This document shows, in pieces, positions 1 to 5,712 of a DNA stretch of 64,000 nucleotides. This DNA is from Halopseudomonas pelagia (GTDB lineage Bacteria > Pseudomonadota > Gammaproteobacteria > Pseudomonadales > Pseudomonadaceae). The notes below the pieces were generated by a model. That model saw nothing but the letters and a program-made list of their open reading frames with translations, was not told the origin of the DNA and did no database searches. Position 1 is the stretch's first letter; every line of letters starts with the position of its first letter. The stretch covers positions 620,001-684,000 of the forward strand of contig NZ_CP033116.1 of NCBI RefSeq assembly GCF_009497895.1. Direction: 5' to 3'. The translations under genes and the position numbers were made by a program.

Positions 1-1254
1 CTAAACAAGAAGATCGGTGCGATGGATGTGCTCGAAATCCAGGAACTGATCGAGCAAGAGAAAACCCGTCTCGCGGCTGTTCGCAATCAGATTCAGCGCG
101 CCGAGCAGGACAAAGCCAGCCTTGAGCAACGCTCTTCTGACCTTCAGGCGCAGATTCTCGTGTGGGAGGAGACGCTGCTCCTTGAAAGCTTCGCGCTCTA
201 TGAGCCGAAGTTCAAGCTCAATGCCAGCACTGAATACAAATCGCGACTGGACAAAGTGCGTGAGCGCCAGAAGGCGATGATCAAGAACGGCGAAGCCTCT
301 ACCGGCAATATGGCTTGGTCCGTCAACGGCAGCAACGCTCAAGGGCGCAAGCTCGTTAACGACATGATCAAGCTGGTTATCCGGTCGTTCAACAACGAGG
401 CTGACTACTGCGTGGACAATGTTAAGTTCAATAACATAGAGCTTGGCGAGAAACGTATTCTCAAATCCTTTGAGGCGTGCAACCGCCTCGGCAAGGTTAT
501 GAGCGTCGAGCTATCGCGCCAATATTTGAAGCTCAAGCTTGATGAGCTGCACCTTGCCCATGAGTTTCAACTCAAGAAGCAGGAAGAAAAGGAAGAGGCG
601 AAGCGGGCCCGCGAAGAGCTACGCGAGCAACAGAAGCTTGAGCAAGAGATCCGCGCCGCTCGGGAAAAAATCGCCAAGGAGCGTAAGCACTTCGATACTG
701 CGTTGCGAGATCTCCTGGCACGCCTGGAGAGAGTTCAGACCGAAGAGGAGCGAGTTGCTCTTACGTCAAAGCTAGCTGAGATTGAGGCAGGCCGAGCGGA
801 GCTTGAAGGAGAGGAGAAGCTCATTGACTATCGCGAGCAAAACGCGAAGGCCGGTTATGTCTATGTCATATCGAATGTTGGGGCATTCGGGAAGGACGTC
901 TACAAGATCGGTATGACTCGCCGGCTGGAGCCAATGGACCGCATCTCGGAGTTGGGTGATGCTTCGGTGCCGTTTTGGTTTGACGTACATGCGATGGTTT
1001 TCTCTGACAACGCTCCCACGCTTGAAGCGAAGCTGCACGAACGCTTTGCCGCAGGTCGCCTTAATAAAGTGAACGGGCGCAAGGAGTTTTTTCGTGCAGA
1101 CATTGCTGAGATCGAGTCGGTAATTAGGGAAAACTACGACGCTGTTGTCGAGGTCACCCACGAAGCGCCAGCTGAGCAGTATCGTGAAAGCCTCCGCATG
1201 GCGATGCCTGCGGAAACTATTCAGCAATCAGAAAGGACAGCGGCAGCAAGCTAG
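1..1254 (+). CDS. DUF4041 / T5orf172 (GIY-YIG-type) domain protein, 5' end probably outside window
   Basis: Numbered from the first in-frame ATG at 22, the frame gives 410 residues, but it is open to the window edge. The residues before that ATG (LNKKIGA) look like family sequence, so the true start is probably upstream. Residues 1-50 and 180-270 are Glu/Lys/Arg-rich coiled coil. Between them, LYEPKF near 59-64 opens a DUF4041-like region. The C-terminus is a T5orf172/MUG113 module of the GIY-YIG nuclease superfamily: YVYVI at about 279-283, YKIG at 294-297, and the conserved ending LHERFAAGRLN...RKEFFRAD at about 338-360. Such proteins are common in phages and mobile regions. DNA binding or cleavage is inferred from the family and no target is known. 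G+C is clearly higher than in the cassette that follows. Confidence 0.8.
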   Translation, partial: LNKKIGAMDVLEIQELIEQEKTRLAAVRNQIQRAEQDKASLEQRSSDLQAQILVWEETLLLESFALYEPKFKLNASTEYKSRLDKVRERQKAMIKNGEASTGNMAWSVNGSNAQGRKLVNDMIKLVIRSFNNEADYCVDNVKFNNIELGEKRILKSFEACNRLGKVMSVELSRQYLKLKLDELHLAHEFQLKKQEEKEEAKRAREELREQQKLEQEIRAAREKIAKERKHFDTALRDLLARLERVQTEEERVALTSKLAEIEAGRAELEGEEKLIDYREQNAKAGYVYVISNVGAFGKDVYKIGMTRRLEPMDRISELGDASVPFWFDVHAMVFSDNAPTLEAKLHERFAAGRLNKVNGRKEFFRADIAEIESVIRENYDAVVEVTHEAPAEQYRESLRMAMPAETIQQSERTAAAS

Positions 1255-1375
1255 AATCCTCGGGAAATGAGCTTCAGGTCTCTAGCGCTTGTCATACTGC
1301 CATGGTCCAGAGCCTAGGAATTTATTTCAGACTCCAGTATCTTATCTAAACACCAAAAACTGTAACGAGTAACGT

Positions 1376-1381
1376 TATAAT
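1376..1381 (+). promoter_or_regulatory. candidate -10 box (TATAAT) for the ATPase/STAS/PIN cassette
   Basis: A perfect TATAAT lies in an AT-rich gap 119 bases before the chosen ATG of the next gene, just after the direct repeat GTAACGA-GTAACG. I see no good -35 hexamer at 16-18 bases spacing, so this is tentative. Confidence 0.35.
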
Positions 1382-1500
1382 TATTGTACAAGGGTGGGCC
1401 ACAGGGGCTTCGGGCTGGCCTTGACGTTGAACTTTTGGATGGTCTGGCTTCTCGAAGTATTGACAAATTCGGTTGTGTAGTTCCACGACAGGGCGGCAGC

Positions 1501-2448
1501 ATGGAAAAGCAACGCTTAAAAATAAATTTACCGCCAATTCGAGACGACGCATCCGGCTATAAATATTTGAGCAAATTATCTGACCAATTAATCTCAAATC
1601 CGCAGCACTTTTATACCTTTGACTTCTCTAAATGTTCCACTATGAGCCATAATGGTTTGGCGGTGATAGGAGGGGTATGTAATTATCTTAAGCGACACGA
1701 ATTGCAAACTCCCTTTTTTAGTATGTTTTCTGATAAGAAGATTGGATTCAGTCTTGATGGAATGAGTCCTAGACTTCAGTCGCGGCTCCAGGAACTTGGA
1801 TTTTGGAATTATGTACAGCCGGACCATGGTGTCGTTGGTGGTAATGATTATATCGGGTATCGAGAGCACGAAGAAGTGCTTAAAGACTTTGAGATAATTA
1901 ATCATTTGCAAGATAGCTGGTTAACAAACGAAAAACTTTCGCTTAGCACTAGCCTTAAGAACGAAATCGTCAGTAGTATTTATGAAATTTTTGTGAATGC
2001 TTATGGTCATGGGCTAAAAGAAAACTTAAACAATCAGAGCGTAATATCTTGTGGCTATTATGAGGCGAAAGAGAAGCGCTTATCATTGTCCGTGCTTGAT
2101 TTTGGTGGGGGTGTAGTTCGGTCTGTGCAAAAGTGCTTTCCTAATGTAGCAAAAGAAGAAGCGTTTCGTTGGGCATTGGAAGTAGGTAATTCGACAAGGA
2201 CTGATAGTCCCGCTGACATACCACGGGGTTTAGGCTTCGGTTTGCTCAAAGACTTTATTCTAGTAAATGGTGGCGTGCTGAGGGTATGCAGTGACGGCTA
2301 TATGGCCACAGTGTCGGACAACGGTTCATATGTTACACAAAGCATGCCGGGTCATTTCTTTGGTACGCTAGTTAGCATAACTGTTAATTGTGACGGTAAG
2401 CATTATAAGTTGAGGTCAGAAGTTGCTAGTGCCCCATCTTACTTTTAA
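1501..2448 (+). CDS. GHKL-type ATPase with STAS-like N-terminal half; anti-sigma-kinase-like
   Basis: The protein has 315 residues. The C-terminal half carries the marks of a histidine-kinase-like ATPase fold: an N box EIFVNAYGHG at 162-171 (E162, N166), a G1 box LDFGGG at 199-204, a G2 box RGLGFGL at 242-248, and a final strand FGTLVSI at 288-293. There is no H box, HAMP or membrane segment, so this is not a classical sensor kinase. The N-terminal part (FDFSKCSTMSHNGLAVIGG, about 40-58) resembles a STAS-type fold, which I infer from pattern only. The frame is open upstream to a TTG at 1384, but that stretch looks non-coding, and the ATG at 1501 follows an AGGG-type ribosome site. It lies 12 bases before the STAS-like gene and is plainly AT-rich. 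The function is unknown. An RsbW/SpoIIAB-like partner-switching role is a hypothesis. Confidence 0.75.
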   Translation: MEKQRLKINLPPIRDDASGYKYLSKLSDQLISNPQHFYTFDFSKCSTMSHNGLAVIGGVCNYLKRHELQTPFFSMFSDKKIGFSLDGMSPRLQSRLQELGFWNYVQPDHGVVGGNDYIGYREHEEVLKDFEIINHLQDSWLTNEKLSLSTSLKNEIVSSIYEIFVNAYGHGLKENLNNQSVISCGYYEAKEKRLSLSVLDFGGGVVRSVQKCFPNVAKEEAFRWALEVGNSTRTDSPADIPRGLGFGLLKDFILVNGGVLRVCSDGYMATVSDNGSYVTQSMPGHFFGTLVSITVNCDGKHYKLRSEVASAPSYF

Positions 2449-2460
2449 GGAGACAAGCAC

Positions 2461-2805
2461 ATGGTTACTATAAACGTAAAAGAAATGGTAGGTGCTAATG
2501 CCATTTCAATGAATTCTGGACAAAAAATTAAAAGCGAGATAAACAAGTTGTGGGAAAAAGAGGACACGATTAGTGTGAATTTCGAAGGGATAGACGTTTT
2601 CGCGTCTCCTTTTTTTAATGCAAGTATTGGAGCTTTGTTGAAAGATAAAACTATTGAGCAGCTCCAAGGTAAATTGAAATTTATAAATATTTCGGATCAT
2701 GGGCGCAGGCTTCTGAATTTGGTTATACAGAATGCAATTAAATTCTATTCAGATAGCTCAGATAATACAAAAAATGGTCTCGACCAAGCTCATAAGGATA
2801 TGTGA
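2461..2805 (+). CDS. STAS-like domain protein (DUF4325 type)
   Basis: The protein has 114 residues and sits behind a strong AAGGAG ribosome site. The centre, ISVNFEGIDVFASPFFNAS at about 37-55, has the DUF4325 pattern: a hydrophobic strand, an acidic/Gly turn, then a Ser/Pro-Phe-Phe segment. This matches the loop region of anti-anti-sigma STAS proteins that is phosphorylated by a GHKL kinase, so S49 would be the candidate site. That mapping is inference. Its place directly behind a GHKL ATPase fits a kinase/substrate pair. The stop TGA at 2803-2805 shares its A with the next ATG, implying translational coupling. The first 60 coding bases are 33% G+C by count, against 68% in a 60-base stretch of pilT counted the same way. 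Confidence 0.75.
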   Translation: MVTINVKEMVGANAISMNSGQKIKSEINKLWEKEDTISVNFEGIDVFASPFFNASIGALLKDKTIEQLQGKLKFINISDHGRRLLNLVIQNAIKFYSDSSDNTKNGLDQAHKDM

Positions 2806-3365
2806 TGTTGCGCGACATTAAAAATGTGTCTCCCGGGAAAGGGGAGTTGTTTTTTGTTGACACGAATGTCTGGTATTGGATGACTTACTTCGCATCAAAA
2901 TCCTTCGTTCCCAAAGGGCCGAAGCAGTATCAAATAGAAAATTATCCGAACTTCATTGAGCAGGCAGTCAATAACAAAGCGGTTTTATATTATTCGCCAC
3001 TTATGCTCATTGAGCTCACCAGTCTTATCGAGCGTGCTGAGTTTGAAATTTTTAAGGCGTTTAAGAATGATCAAAACTTTTCTTTCAAGCGTTTTCGAAA
3101 TGACCAGCATCAACGTAAAGTCGTGATTGATGAGCTGCATTTAGCTTGGGAACAGGTGAGGCAGCTGGCGATAGAGCTTCCTGCCAAAATTGGTGATGAT
3201 TTGGAGTGTAAAGTCCTAGATTATCTAAGAAATTTTAATATAGATGGATACGATAGTCTTTATTACTATTTTATGAAGCAAAATAATATAGTTAATATTA
3301 TTACAGATGATAAAGATTTCCGCGGTCTTGATGGAATAGAGCTTTACAGCTGTTTTGAGAGATAA
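2805..3365 (+). CDS. PIN-domain protein, probable ribonuclease
   Basis: The protein has 186 residues from the ATG at 2805. A GTG one codon upstream is possible. PIN hallmarks appear in order: FFVDTNVW at 16-23 with the first acidic residue D19, an acidic residue in LMLIELTSLIERAEFE at about 66-81, DGYDSLYYY near 147-155, and ITDDKDF near 165-171. The spacing of the four acidic positions agrees with a metal-dependent PIN nuclease. It is the third gene of the AT-rich cassette and overlaps the STAS-like gene by one base. No small antitoxin-like gene adjoins it, so it is not an ordinary VapBC pair. Control by the two upstream proteins is inference. Its RNA target is unknown. Confidence 0.75.
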   Translation: MLRDIKNVSPGKGELFFVDTNVWYWMTYFASKSFVPKGPKQYQIENYPNFIEQAVNNKAVLYYSPLMLIELTSLIERAEFEIFKAFKNDQNFSFKRFRNDQHQRKVVIDELHLAWEQVRQLAIELPAKIGDDLECKVLDYLRNFNIDGYDSLYYYFMKQNNIVNIITDDKDFRGLDGIELYSCFER

Positions 3366-3382
3366 AAGGAACCTGTTTGTAG

Positions 3383-3877
3383 TTAGAGTCTTGCTCTAAG
3401 CTTTGGTGGTAAGGCCTTAATAGTGAAGGACTGCTGATGCACCTCCAGATACACGCAATTAACTGTTGCCCATTCCAGCATTACTGCACAGATCCAAAAG
3501 AGCAATATTGATGCTAGTAGAAGTAGCATCTCTATAGCCGAATTGGAGCTTTCCCATATCCATACTGCTAAGGTTACCGCGGTCATCACCGCGAGGGTCG
3601 TAATGCACACTGAACGGCACGCTTCAACTGGAGAACGTAGGAACTTGATAGCTTTGCTGTCAGAAGGCCAGCCGAAAATAGACTAATGCAGAAGCAACAG
3701 ATGGCTGAGCCAAGTAGAATGGCAAGTGTACATAGCGACACCCTCAGAGATTATGCGCATCAGTATTTCAGAGAGCTGTGGAGCTGGAAAGAACGTGGCT
3801 ATAGTGCCGATGACAAATGAAAAAATAGCAAAAAATGGAAATATCGACAGGTCATGGAGTATGTGAGATTTGACTAT
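3383..3877 (-). pseudogene. remnant of a polytopic membrane protein
   Basis: Read leftward, one frame runs from 3877 to 3383 interrupted only by TAG at 3685-3683. It has strongly hydrophobic stretches at both ends (SIFPFFAIFSFVIGTIATFF near the start, AIEMLLLLASILLFWICAVM near the end). Over 3742-3630 a different frame gives another membrane-like run, LAILLGSAICCFCISLF, before it stops. Frameshift damage is therefore as likely as a single nonsense mutation. No credible start codon or ribosome site is present. I do not recognise the family. The opposite strand of 3366-4150 holds no convincing gene, and 3878-4149 shows nothing I can name. Confidence 0.45.
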
Positions 3878-4149
3878 TTAAGTTGTCTTAGAAAGTCTGG
3901 CATTAACAGTCGTCTCTTTAGGAATGCGGTTAAATTTTCGGACACCAGAGCAGGTGTTTGGGAAAAAAGCCATTGTAAGCTTCTGGGAGTATCAGAACCT
4001 GTAAAAAGGGATCTGTTTATTAGTTGTAAATGGCGGTACTGACCAAAAGCGGCTGCACCAATCTCTCCAAAACCATCACCCTTTTTTTAACACCATCCAC
4101 CCCAACAATACCCCCACATACGCATTCATAACACAGCTGGTCCCCGTGA

Positions 4150-4172
4150 CCGGTCAGTTCTAAACTGGTCGG
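4150..4172. promoter_or_regulatory. imperfect palindrome, probable operator of the enoyl-CoA hydratase gene
   Basis: A 23-base dyad with half sites CCG-N2-CAGTT and AACTG-N2-CGG lies 25 bases before the ATG at 4198. All outer and inner half-site bases pair, apart from the two N2 positions and a 3-base centre. Size and form suit a TetR-family dimer, but no regulator gene is adjacent, so the binding protein is unknown. Confidence 0.5.
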
Positions 4173-4197
4173 CATCTGATCAACAGGGAGCACCCTC

Positions 4198-5058
4198 ATG
4201 TCTTACGAAACACTCGATTACCAGATCAAGGACGGCATCCTTACCCTGACACTGAACCGCCCCGACCGTATGAACGCCTTTAACGCTGCCATGTGCCGCG
4301 AACTGATCGCGGCTTTTGACGCGGCTGATGCCGATGACAAGGTGCGCGTGATCATCATGACCGGTGCCGGCAAGGCGTTTTGTGCGGGTGCGGATCTTGA
4401 GAAGGGCGGCGATACCTTTAACCGGCACAAGCGTCAGAGTGAGCCTGAGGGTGACACGCTGCGCGATGGGGGCGGTACCGTTTCTCTGCGGATCTATGAA
4501 TGCACCAAGCCGGTGATTGGTGCCTTTAACGGCGCGGCGGTGGGTGTAGGCGCGACCATGACGTTGCCGATGGATATTCGTATGGCGTCGACCAAGGCGC
4601 GGTTCGGGTTTGTGTTTGCGCGTCGTGGTATCACTATGGAAGCCTGCTCCAGCTGGTTCCTGCCGCGTCTGGTCGGGCCTATGCAGGCTGCGGAGTGGGT
4701 GTATACCGGTCGTGTGTTTGATGCTGAGGAAGCGTTAAAGGGCGGGTTGATTCGCAGTATTCATGAGCCGGACGAGTTGCTGCCGGCGGCTTATGCGTTG
4801 GCGCGTGAAATTGCTGACAACACTTCTGGCATGTCTGCGCTGCTTAACCGTCAGTTGTTGTGGCGCATGATGGCGGCGGATCATCCGATGGAAGCGCACA
4901 AGGTCGATTCGCGGGCGATTGCCTTTATGGGCGAGTCGGCGGATGCCCAGGAGGGTGTGCAGTCCTTCCTGGAAAAGCGTCCGCCGCAGTTCAAGCTCAG
5001 CCCAAGCAAGGATCGCCCGGCGTTCTATCCCTGGTGGGATGAGCGGCCCTTCAAGTAA
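4198..5058 (+). CDS. enoyl-CoA hydratase/isomerase (crotonase) family protein
   Basis: The protein has 286 residues and a GGGAG ribosome site. It shows crotonase features: LTLNRPDRMNAFN at about 16-28; an oxyanion-hole loop GAGKAFCAGADL at about 56-67; a second oxyanion segment FNGAAVGVGA near 111-120; and GITMEACSSWFLPRLVG around 146-162, with a Glu where active hydratases carry an acid residue. The C-terminus, rich in Pro and aromatics (FYPWWDERPF), is typical of a subgroup annotated as enoyl-CoA hydratases. It probably hydrates 2-enoyl-CoA in fatty acid or related acyl-CoA degradation, but the exact substrate cannot be read. It stands alone behind a palindromic operator, and glyoxalase I follows after about 110 bases with further palindromes. 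Confidence 0.88.
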   Translation: MSYETLDYQIKDGILTLTLNRPDRMNAFNAAMCRELIAAFDAADADDKVRVIIMTGAGKAFCAGADLEKGGDTFNRHKRQSEPEGDTLRDGGGTVSLRIYECTKPVIGAFNGAAVGVGATMTLPMDIRMASTKARFGFVFARRGITMEACSSWFLPRLVGPMQAAEWVYTGRVFDAEEALKGGLIRSIHEPDELLPAAYALAREIADNTSGMSALLNRQLLWRMMAADHPMEAHKVDSRAIAFMGESADAQEGVQSFLEKRPPQFKLSPSKDRPAFYPWWDERPFK

Positions 5059-5166: not shown

Positions 5167-5709
5167 ATGAGTCGCCATTTTGAATCCGCTGTCGGACTCT
5201 GCGAGAACCGCGATCCGGCTACCGAAGGTTTTGTATTCAACCAGACCATGCTGCGCATCAAGTCGCCGGAAGCGACGCTGGATTTCTATACCCGCATCAT
5301 GGGCATGACGCTGGTGAAGAAGCTGGATTTTGAAGAGATGAAGTTCAGCCTCTATTTCCTCGCTGCTATCGATACCCATGAGCTGGTGGACTGGTCGCAC
5401 GATAATCGCGAGCGCCTGGTGCAGACTTTTGGCCGCCCGGCGATGCTGGAGTTGACGCATAACTGGGGCACGGAAGACGATGCCGATTTCAGTTACCACA
5501 ACGGCAATGACGAGCCCAAGGGCTTTGGGCATATCGGCTTCGCCGTGCCGGATCTGGAGGCGGCCTGCGCGCGATTTGAGGAGCTGGGAGTCAGCTTCGT
5601 CAAACGCCCGCAGGATGGCAAGATGAAGAATATTGCCTTTATCCGCGATCCGGATGGTTACTGGATCGAGCTGTTCACGCCGGGCGATCTGCCTGACGTG
5701 CTGGGCTGA
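5167..5709 (+). CDS. gloA: lactoylglutathione lyase (glyoxalase I), long zinc-type form
   Basis: The protein has 180 residues, starting at ATG 5167 behind GGGAG. It converts the methylglyoxal-glutathione hemithioacetal to S-lactoylglutathione in the cytosol. Four metal-ligand positions of the eukaryote-like class are visible: Q in VFNQTMLRIK (about 26), E in LELTHNWG (about 92), H in GFGHIGFAV (about 118), and E in DGYWIELF (about 164). The length exceeds the roughly 130-residue nickel-type GloA and matches the long Pseudomonas form with an N-terminal extension. The preceding nested palindromes may control it. The window also carries gshA and gshB, which make its cofactor, but they are not linked to it. 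Confidence 0.93.
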   Translation: MSRHFESAVGLCENRDPATEGFVFNQTMLRIKSPEATLDFYTRIMGMTLVKKLDFEEMKFSLYFLAAIDTHELVDWSHDNRERLVQTFGRPAMLELTHNWGTEDDADFSYHNGNDEPKGFGHIGFAVPDLEAACARFEELGVSFVKRPQDGKMKNIAFIRDPDGYWIELFTPGDLPDVLG

Positions 5710-5712
5710 TCT

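Follow-up and report, generated by a model that had tools for sequence, protein, structure and literature searches.

The window analysed here, the whole stretch of 64,000 nucleotides corresponding to bases 620001-684000 of the 4.55-Mb single-contig genome of Halopseudomonas pelagia, carries close to its start a cassette of three genes which is very probably a vapKSC operon, whose kinase would release a nuclease toxin to stop the infected cell. vapKSC was described in Escherichia as a kinase, STAS-antitoxin and PIN-toxin system by Chambers and others (EMBO J, June 2026; PMC13373217). In the initial annotation of the window it was proposed that the ATPase phosphorylates the STAS-like protein and so gates the PIN ribonuclease (RNase) in a possible stress or anti-phage module, which is right in outline and matches the published model; the activating signal, for VapK proposed to be single-stranded DNA, was absent from that account. 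The cassette adds a copy to an already published system and the idea is no longer new. Within the window the assignment is supported by the layout of the genes, by the families to which their products belong, by conserved residues of the active sites and of the phospho-site, and by a position in a variable spot beside a defence gene.

All three genes lie on the forward strand. The first, vapK (1501..2448), encodes a protein of 315 residues in which a STAS domain (residues ~2-106) is fused to a SpoIIAB-like GHKL kinase domain (~116-300) with the catalytic motifs E162, N166, D200-x-G-x-G and R242-G-L-G. It is followed by vapS (2461..2805), encoding a predicted DUF4325/STAS antitoxin of 114 residues with a C-terminal tail and with S49 at bases 2605-2607, and by vapC (2805..3365), encoding from its ATG a predicted PIN nuclease toxin of 186 residues with the acidic residues D19, E70, D147, D150, D169 and D171. 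The 12-base gap after the first stop codon and the one-base TGATG overlap originally reported for the three same-strand open reading frames (ORFs) are both exact, and a good vapS ribosome-binding site (AAGGAG, 2447..2452, forward strand) overlaps the vapK stop. The AT-richness of the cassette is real and goes beyond any other part of the window, with a G+C content of 38.9% for the operon overall (40.9, 34.5 and 37.6% for vapK, vapS and vapC) against a mean of 59.7% (standard deviation 2.1, minimum 53.1%) in 194 operon-sized windows in 4198-64000 and 59.6% for the window beyond 4198. The figures of 33% against 68% first given for it came from small samples and overstated the contrast.

Two of the three window proteins, the PIN and the STAS protein, are sequence relatives of the solved Escherichia VapC and VapS, for which a VapS2-VapC2 crystal structure is available (Escherichia sp. 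E4736; PDB 9z7o; PMC13373217). VapC of the window matches chain 9z7o_C with an expect value (E) of 4e-28, D19 aligning with chain residue 28, and VapS matches 9z7o_A (E 9.8e-14) with the FASPFFN motif aligned and S49 opposite chain residue 66, which is S48 if 18 extra residues stand in front (134 minus 116), a tag length that we infer. Pfam matches DUF4325 (PF14213, 47.3 bits) and PIN (PF01850, 28.5 bits) and scores the kinase at 19.5 bits for HATPase_c_2, below the cut-off of 27.4. The structure model of VapK (predicted local distance difference test (pLDDT) 86) removes the doubt left by this weak GHKL score, since its GHKL domain is nearest SpoIIAB; its STAS domain is nearest a chain of an RsbV/RsbW complex, and the five best of 50 structure rows are SpoIIAB complexed with an anti-anti-sigma factor or sigma F. 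Before re-ranking the Foldseek list was headed by Hsp90s with template modelling (TM) scores < 0.3 and was uninformative. By sequence the kinase matched only CheA and unrelated chains in the PDB (E 0.07 or worse) and no VapK, and none of vapK, vapS and vapC matched PADLOC-DB 2.0.0 (2023).

The catalytic acids of the PIN domain and N166/D200 of the ATPase, whose loss had been considered in the initial annotation, are retained. D19, D147, D150, D169 and D171 are present in 63 of 63 VapC sequences and E70 in 62 of 63, this set consisting of the window protein, 13 loci and 49 relatives with the cut PIN of L004 excluded. VapK E162, N166, D200, G202, G204, G243, L244 and G245 are invariant in 35 homologues chosen from 120 listed, and N166 and D200 are also kept in 16/16 PIN-type kinases. 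Outside the usual PIN acids K95 and R98 of VapC (K-x-x-R, bases 3087-3098) are likewise invariant (63/63) and may serve in RNA or VapS binding.

In the proposed mechanism VapC would be a growth-stopping RNase kept inactive by VapS, the C-terminal tail of which would be placed by the VapC active site. VapK would respond to damaged DNA or an infecting phage, the signal probably being single-stranded DNA, and would phosphorylate the VapS serine that corresponds to S49; VapS so modified would release VapC to cut RNA, such that the infected cell may halt growth before phage multiplication. PMC13373217 reports that Escherichia VapC is toxic, D28A abolishing toxicity, and that VapS rescues from VapC, the rescue being gone without the C-terminal part of VapS or with S48E, a phosphorylation mimic with which VapS-VapC binding is lost. 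It also reports ~2 logs of protection against phage Bas42 which is abolished by VapC D28A, VapS S48A and VapK F54A, F54 lying at the STAS-GHKL interface; activation by single-stranded DNA is shown there for CapK and only proposed for VapK.

Several points weigh against applying this scheme to the window. Its operon is known from sequence and models, and the toxicity, antitoxin and phage-protection results are those of the Escherichia relative; even there the steps in which single-stranded DNA activates VapK and VapK itself phosphorylates VapS, as well as the identity of the RNA cut, are inferred. The published F54 is without a located counterpart in the window kinase; phenylalanines at VapK 42 and 101 are invariant in the 35 homologues, and either of them, or neither, may correspond to it. 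P50 presumably sits opposite the SpoIIAA phosphoserine S58 with S49 one place earlier, an offset despite which S49 lines up with VapS S48.

The same genes might instead be read as an ordinary VapBC-type pair, with a passive STAS antitoxin and an unrelated kinase beside it, serving island maintenance and not defence, which we regard as very improbable. In its favour several of the 50 PIN relatives are named 'type II toxin-antitoxin system VapC family toxin', and the antitoxin action of VapS is in print (PMC13373217). Against it, the kinase and STAS genes are adjacent in PIN-type loci with an uncut flank (the contig of L120 ends earlier), the kinase active site is invariant and the phospho-site residue of 17 PIN-type STAS proteins is S in 16 and T in one. 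Retention of a mere bystander kinase in such loci from Deinococcus to Pseudomonas would be surprising. The description of the cassette as unlike VapBC also stands, DUF4325 being the only Pfam match of the partner and its NCBIfam matches falling far below cut-off. We find it barely credible that a CapKS-like transcriptional switch lies by chance before a PIN gene: the kinase is of CapK's general class and the STAS protein of CapS's, but CapK has an N-terminal helix-turn-helix (HTH) and CapS a C-terminal winged HTH (PMC13373217), whereas the window kinase opens directly with its STAS domain, the STAS protein with its 114 residues matches DUF4325 alone, and Pfam and NCBIfam scans gave no HTH match in either.

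The conserved gene order that the initial annotation set out to check was found: each of the 10 loci recovered by a kinase profile (six on genome contigs, four on viral ones) has the kinase, STAS and PIN genes in this sequence, the PIN gene of L004 being cut by the contig end. In L005 (Aliivibrio sifiae, L005:5995-6969) the vapK frame looks broken in two, vapS and vapC still being open. A Deinococcus plasmid whose kinase is 22.6% identical shares this order, its genes being annotated as ATP-binding, STAS-like and PIN. Of 398 genomes sampled from the phylum 7, own genome included, gave a kinase match, which in two cases was weak (E 2e-4 and 4e-4), and those relatives of the kinase that carry a name belong to gammaproteobacteria, for example Pseudomonas, Photobacterium and Vibrio. 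The window kinase had no match at E 1e-5 in a collection of 50,697 phage records, and the operons of L010 and L012 had none in E. coli genomes. For the published system 289 instances are reported, 103 (36%) of them <10 kb from another immune gene (PMC13373217).

The T5orf172 gene placed beside the cassette in the initial annotation is present directly upstream on the same strand as a neighbour outside vapKSC (T5orf172/DUF4041, 1..1254, forward strand; a 452-residue ORF starting before the window at L002:17896) and scores 485.3 and 444 bits against PADLOC PD-Lambda-1 models. This gene and the operon occupy a variable spot between conserved flanks. The enoyl-CoA-hydratase-like gene downstream is found in 36 of the 37 genomes of the genus, own genome included, and in the nearest relative, G420, both flanks are kept at 90-95% identity with other ORFs in place of the PD-Lambda-1 and operon stretch. 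Homology with G420 ends at L235:4806, within the first copy of a 132-base direct repeat (L235:4678-5702, genome ~618.7-619.7 kb; copies 95% identical and 893 bases apart), and resumes at L235:10095. The second copy (5571-5710) matches the same single place in G420 as the first, and because of these two copies the island has two possible left edges, at genome base 618805 or 619709, the absent stretch running to 624094 (5.3 or 4.4 kb). Its in-window part is 1..4094, the left edge lying ~290 or 1,195 bases before base 1. In G417, too, the two flanks are matched (at 87% and 85%) and different ORFs separate them, and G408 was matched in the right flank alone within the 10 kb fetched. Between the repeats a 97-residue ORF (L235:5209-5502) looks by eye like a RelE/ParE toxin. 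We give next to no weight to a decayed, inactive vapKSC remnant, which would fit the failure to find the kinase in 36 further genomes of the genus and the short-ORF stretch adjoining the operon, since all three frames run open from end to end and no catalytic position tested is lost.

DUF4325 proteins extend beyond vapKSC, being present in 29 of 398 phylum genomes and 54 of 369 class genomes. We examined 58 stretches, covering 30 of the 31 phylum places (that of the window excluded) and, in 28 class stretches, 29 of 62 places; the class stretches were picked for short frames and the fused proteins of the class survey were deliberately excluded. Among these were 11 fused kinase-STAS proteins and 5 PIN-type loci, and a further 16 had a third gene of the membrane type, recognised by profile in 13 and by hydropathy only in 3. 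The other 26 comprised 25 short STAS frames without a recognised third gene, several of them cut or without an adjoining kinase, and one stretch without a STAS frame. Of the 13 profile matches 12 went into the building of the two profiles, which for these 12 give no independent test; the viral set described below does give one. The third gene of one of the 25, L071, lacks a hydrophobic segment; it looks similar by eye, and the locus was counted as membrane-type in the kinase comparison and tree. Six stretches (L053, L055, L056, L063, L065 and L068) encode fused kinase-STAS proteins of 334-352 residues with no effector gene recognised nearby, that of L053 adjoining a queuine tRNA-ribosyltransferase gene.

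Frequent swapping of effectors was considered and rejected. In a tree of 48 kinases the PIN-type (16 rows) forms one clade with support 100/98, and the PIN and membrane labels need one change on the tree, therefore pointing to two old sister lines and no lively exchange. The membrane-type side is less certain; as a group its rows need two changes, and there are long branches in L070, L128, L075, L060, L078 and L114.

The most interesting result, and what is new here, is this sister family, in which the gene after those of the kinase and a DUF4325 STAS protein encodes, in place of PIN, a predicted four-helix protein anchored in the membrane (L054, L123, L126 and others). It shares with vapKSC the order of the kinase and STAS genes, the kinase residues and the kinase PHROG (phrog_3364); in PHROGs the entries for relatives of the kinase and of the STAS protein are labelled 'unknown function'. 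E162, N166, H170, D200, G202, G243, G245 and G288 are kept in 14 of 14 membrane-type kinases, and the STAS proteins mostly read SSFLEEAFGG. Two profile groups cover the third genes, and the match between the groups is weak (hhalign probability 91%, E 1e-6). The structure model of the L126 membrane protein (pLDDT 94.8) has a first helix of 61 residues with a hydrophobic start and then three more helices, and gave no confident fold match; PADLOC had no convincing model for ten proteins from six membrane-type loci.

The sister family is also carried by phages and plasmids. Searching IMG/VR with the membrane-type STAS protein gave 217 relatives, the best 80 of which were analysed (L146-L225). In these 80 the third gene belongs to the membrane family by profile in 75, at a lenient threshold (E 0.01, bits 13-94), and by hydropathy in 2, with 3 being neither. 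The kinase lies directly upstream in 73 of the 80, 4 being cut before the kinase and 3 without one. Near-copy contigs are present, and a 90% likeness cut reduces the 77 viral third genes to 66, among which 40 have an N-terminal hydrophobic stretch (>=1.6) vs 27 of 333 other like-sized ORFs; as 26 of the 66 are below the threshold the anchor is supported for only part of the third genes. PIN-type kinase scans gave 4 and 3 viral loci, the 3 being on the same contigs as three of the 4, and these numbers give no measured ratio of the two types in viruses because the kinase and STAS queries differ in reach. In Marinobacter phage AS1 (L139) the trio AS1_41 to AS1_39 lies one gene off a Cro/CI gene, and for Francisella phage KIRK a published table gives a 293-residue AS1-like protein, a DUF4325 protein and a 125-residue transmembrane protein beside the CI repressor (PMC7924643). 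The trio also occurs on plasmids of Vibrio, Novosphingobium and Acinetobacter (L140-L142), which are 3 of the 11 plasmid records given by a STAS search; the Novosphingobium third gene is an unannotated ORF and Acinetobacter keeps only part of the kinase.

The STAS proteins of the two families differ in length past the motif Phe, from which the tail was counted. In 13 genome loci of the membrane-type 42-55 residues follow it (median 48), 3 others being dropped for want of a match to the motif pattern, and in 77 viral loci 40-66 do so (median again 48). The 17 PIN-type proteins have 53-67 (median 64); by the medians the membrane-type is ~16 residues shorter, although the ranges overlap. Window VapS has 63 residues, a comparison of length only. 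The p-value of 6e-10 is no probability of independent events because the rows are related. What the membrane-type proteins lack is the end which, in VapS, extends to the active site of VapC; this fits a VapS tail evolved together with its PIN partner.

By analogy with VapKSC we lean, by a small balance, towards the kinase-STAS switch driving a second, undescribed output class, in which unphosphorylated STAS protein would hold the membrane protein inactive and infection or DNA damage, by activating the kinase, would release it. The released protein would then damage the membrane or signal through it, a prophage might thereby keep its host from feeding a rival phage, and VapKSC would be the nuclease branch of a wider class of kinase-released effectors. 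The membrane protein could alternatively be an upstream sensor of the kinase and not its output, a reading to which the resemblance of the helical bundle to histidine kinase sensor domains lends itself, but this resemblance is no more than is common for helical bundles. No description of the membrane-partner family was found in the open-licence literature, preprints and the PMC13373217 supplement being outside that scope, and the word 'transmembrane' occurs 0 times in PMC13373217. If the membrane protein does act as an effector, the release of effectors by phosphorylation would be a general form of abortive defence that has two outputs or more and is carried by temperate phages, and the published VapSC structure makes the proposal directly testable.

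The neighbourhoods of relatives of both types, although a small sample, point to defence. PADLOC families matched at 1e-10 numbered 70 near 9 PIN-type loci (65 ORFs) and 61 near 7 membrane-type loci (61 ORFs), against 5 in a control of 9 fused-protein loci (75 ORFs). From 93, 80 and 89 ORFs (PIN, membrane, fused) the genes of the operons themselves and some frames that were cut or overlapped had first been taken out. These tallies are no gene counts because many families match the same protein. Ten chosen PIN-type neighbour ORFs gave two clear cases, a type IIG enzyme by L004 and a type III restriction gene by L059, with no assignment for the other 8. Ten chosen membrane-type neighbours gave three matches and 7 none, with a reverse transcriptase by L057 and a retron I-B ATPase by L070 being clear and one of the three, mad3 by L078, generic.

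Elsewhere at this end of the window, the 'broken gene' of the initial annotation fits the stretch between vapC and the conserved flank (3366-4094), which has 43.9% G+C, holds only ORFs of 75 and 62 residues (in an ORF list of >=60 residues) and is possibly a decayed gene. An Rfam scan of 1-5000 matched no family. Promoter-like sites showed no excess (5 vs 6.4 in shuffles), and terminator-like sites numbered 6 vs 2.6 in shuffles but are located within the three genes.

The window very probably holds an intact vapKSC in a variable spot beside another defence gene, which would account for a cassette in which Pfam names no more than DUF4325 and PIN. VapKSC of Escherichia sp. E4736 (PMC13373217; PDB 9z7o) has the same gene order, domains, PIN active site, phospho-serine and VapS tail, and the window copy is distant from it in sequence. 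CapK-CapS is likewise a STAS-GHKL kinase acting on a STAS protein via a conserved serine and linked to immune operons, but CapS acts as a repressor and the pair precedes other immune operons and not a PIN gene (PMC13373217). VapBC also has a PIN toxin held by a small partner, which there is the DNA-binding antitoxin VapB, whereas the window partner is a STAS protein and is accompanied by a kinase gene. By structure comparison the SpoIIAB-SpoIIAA and RsbW-RsbV switches share the fold of the kinase (SpoIIAB) and of the STAS part (RsbV, RsbS), but the window kinase carries its own STAS domain. The output of those switches is a sigma factor and not a nuclease.
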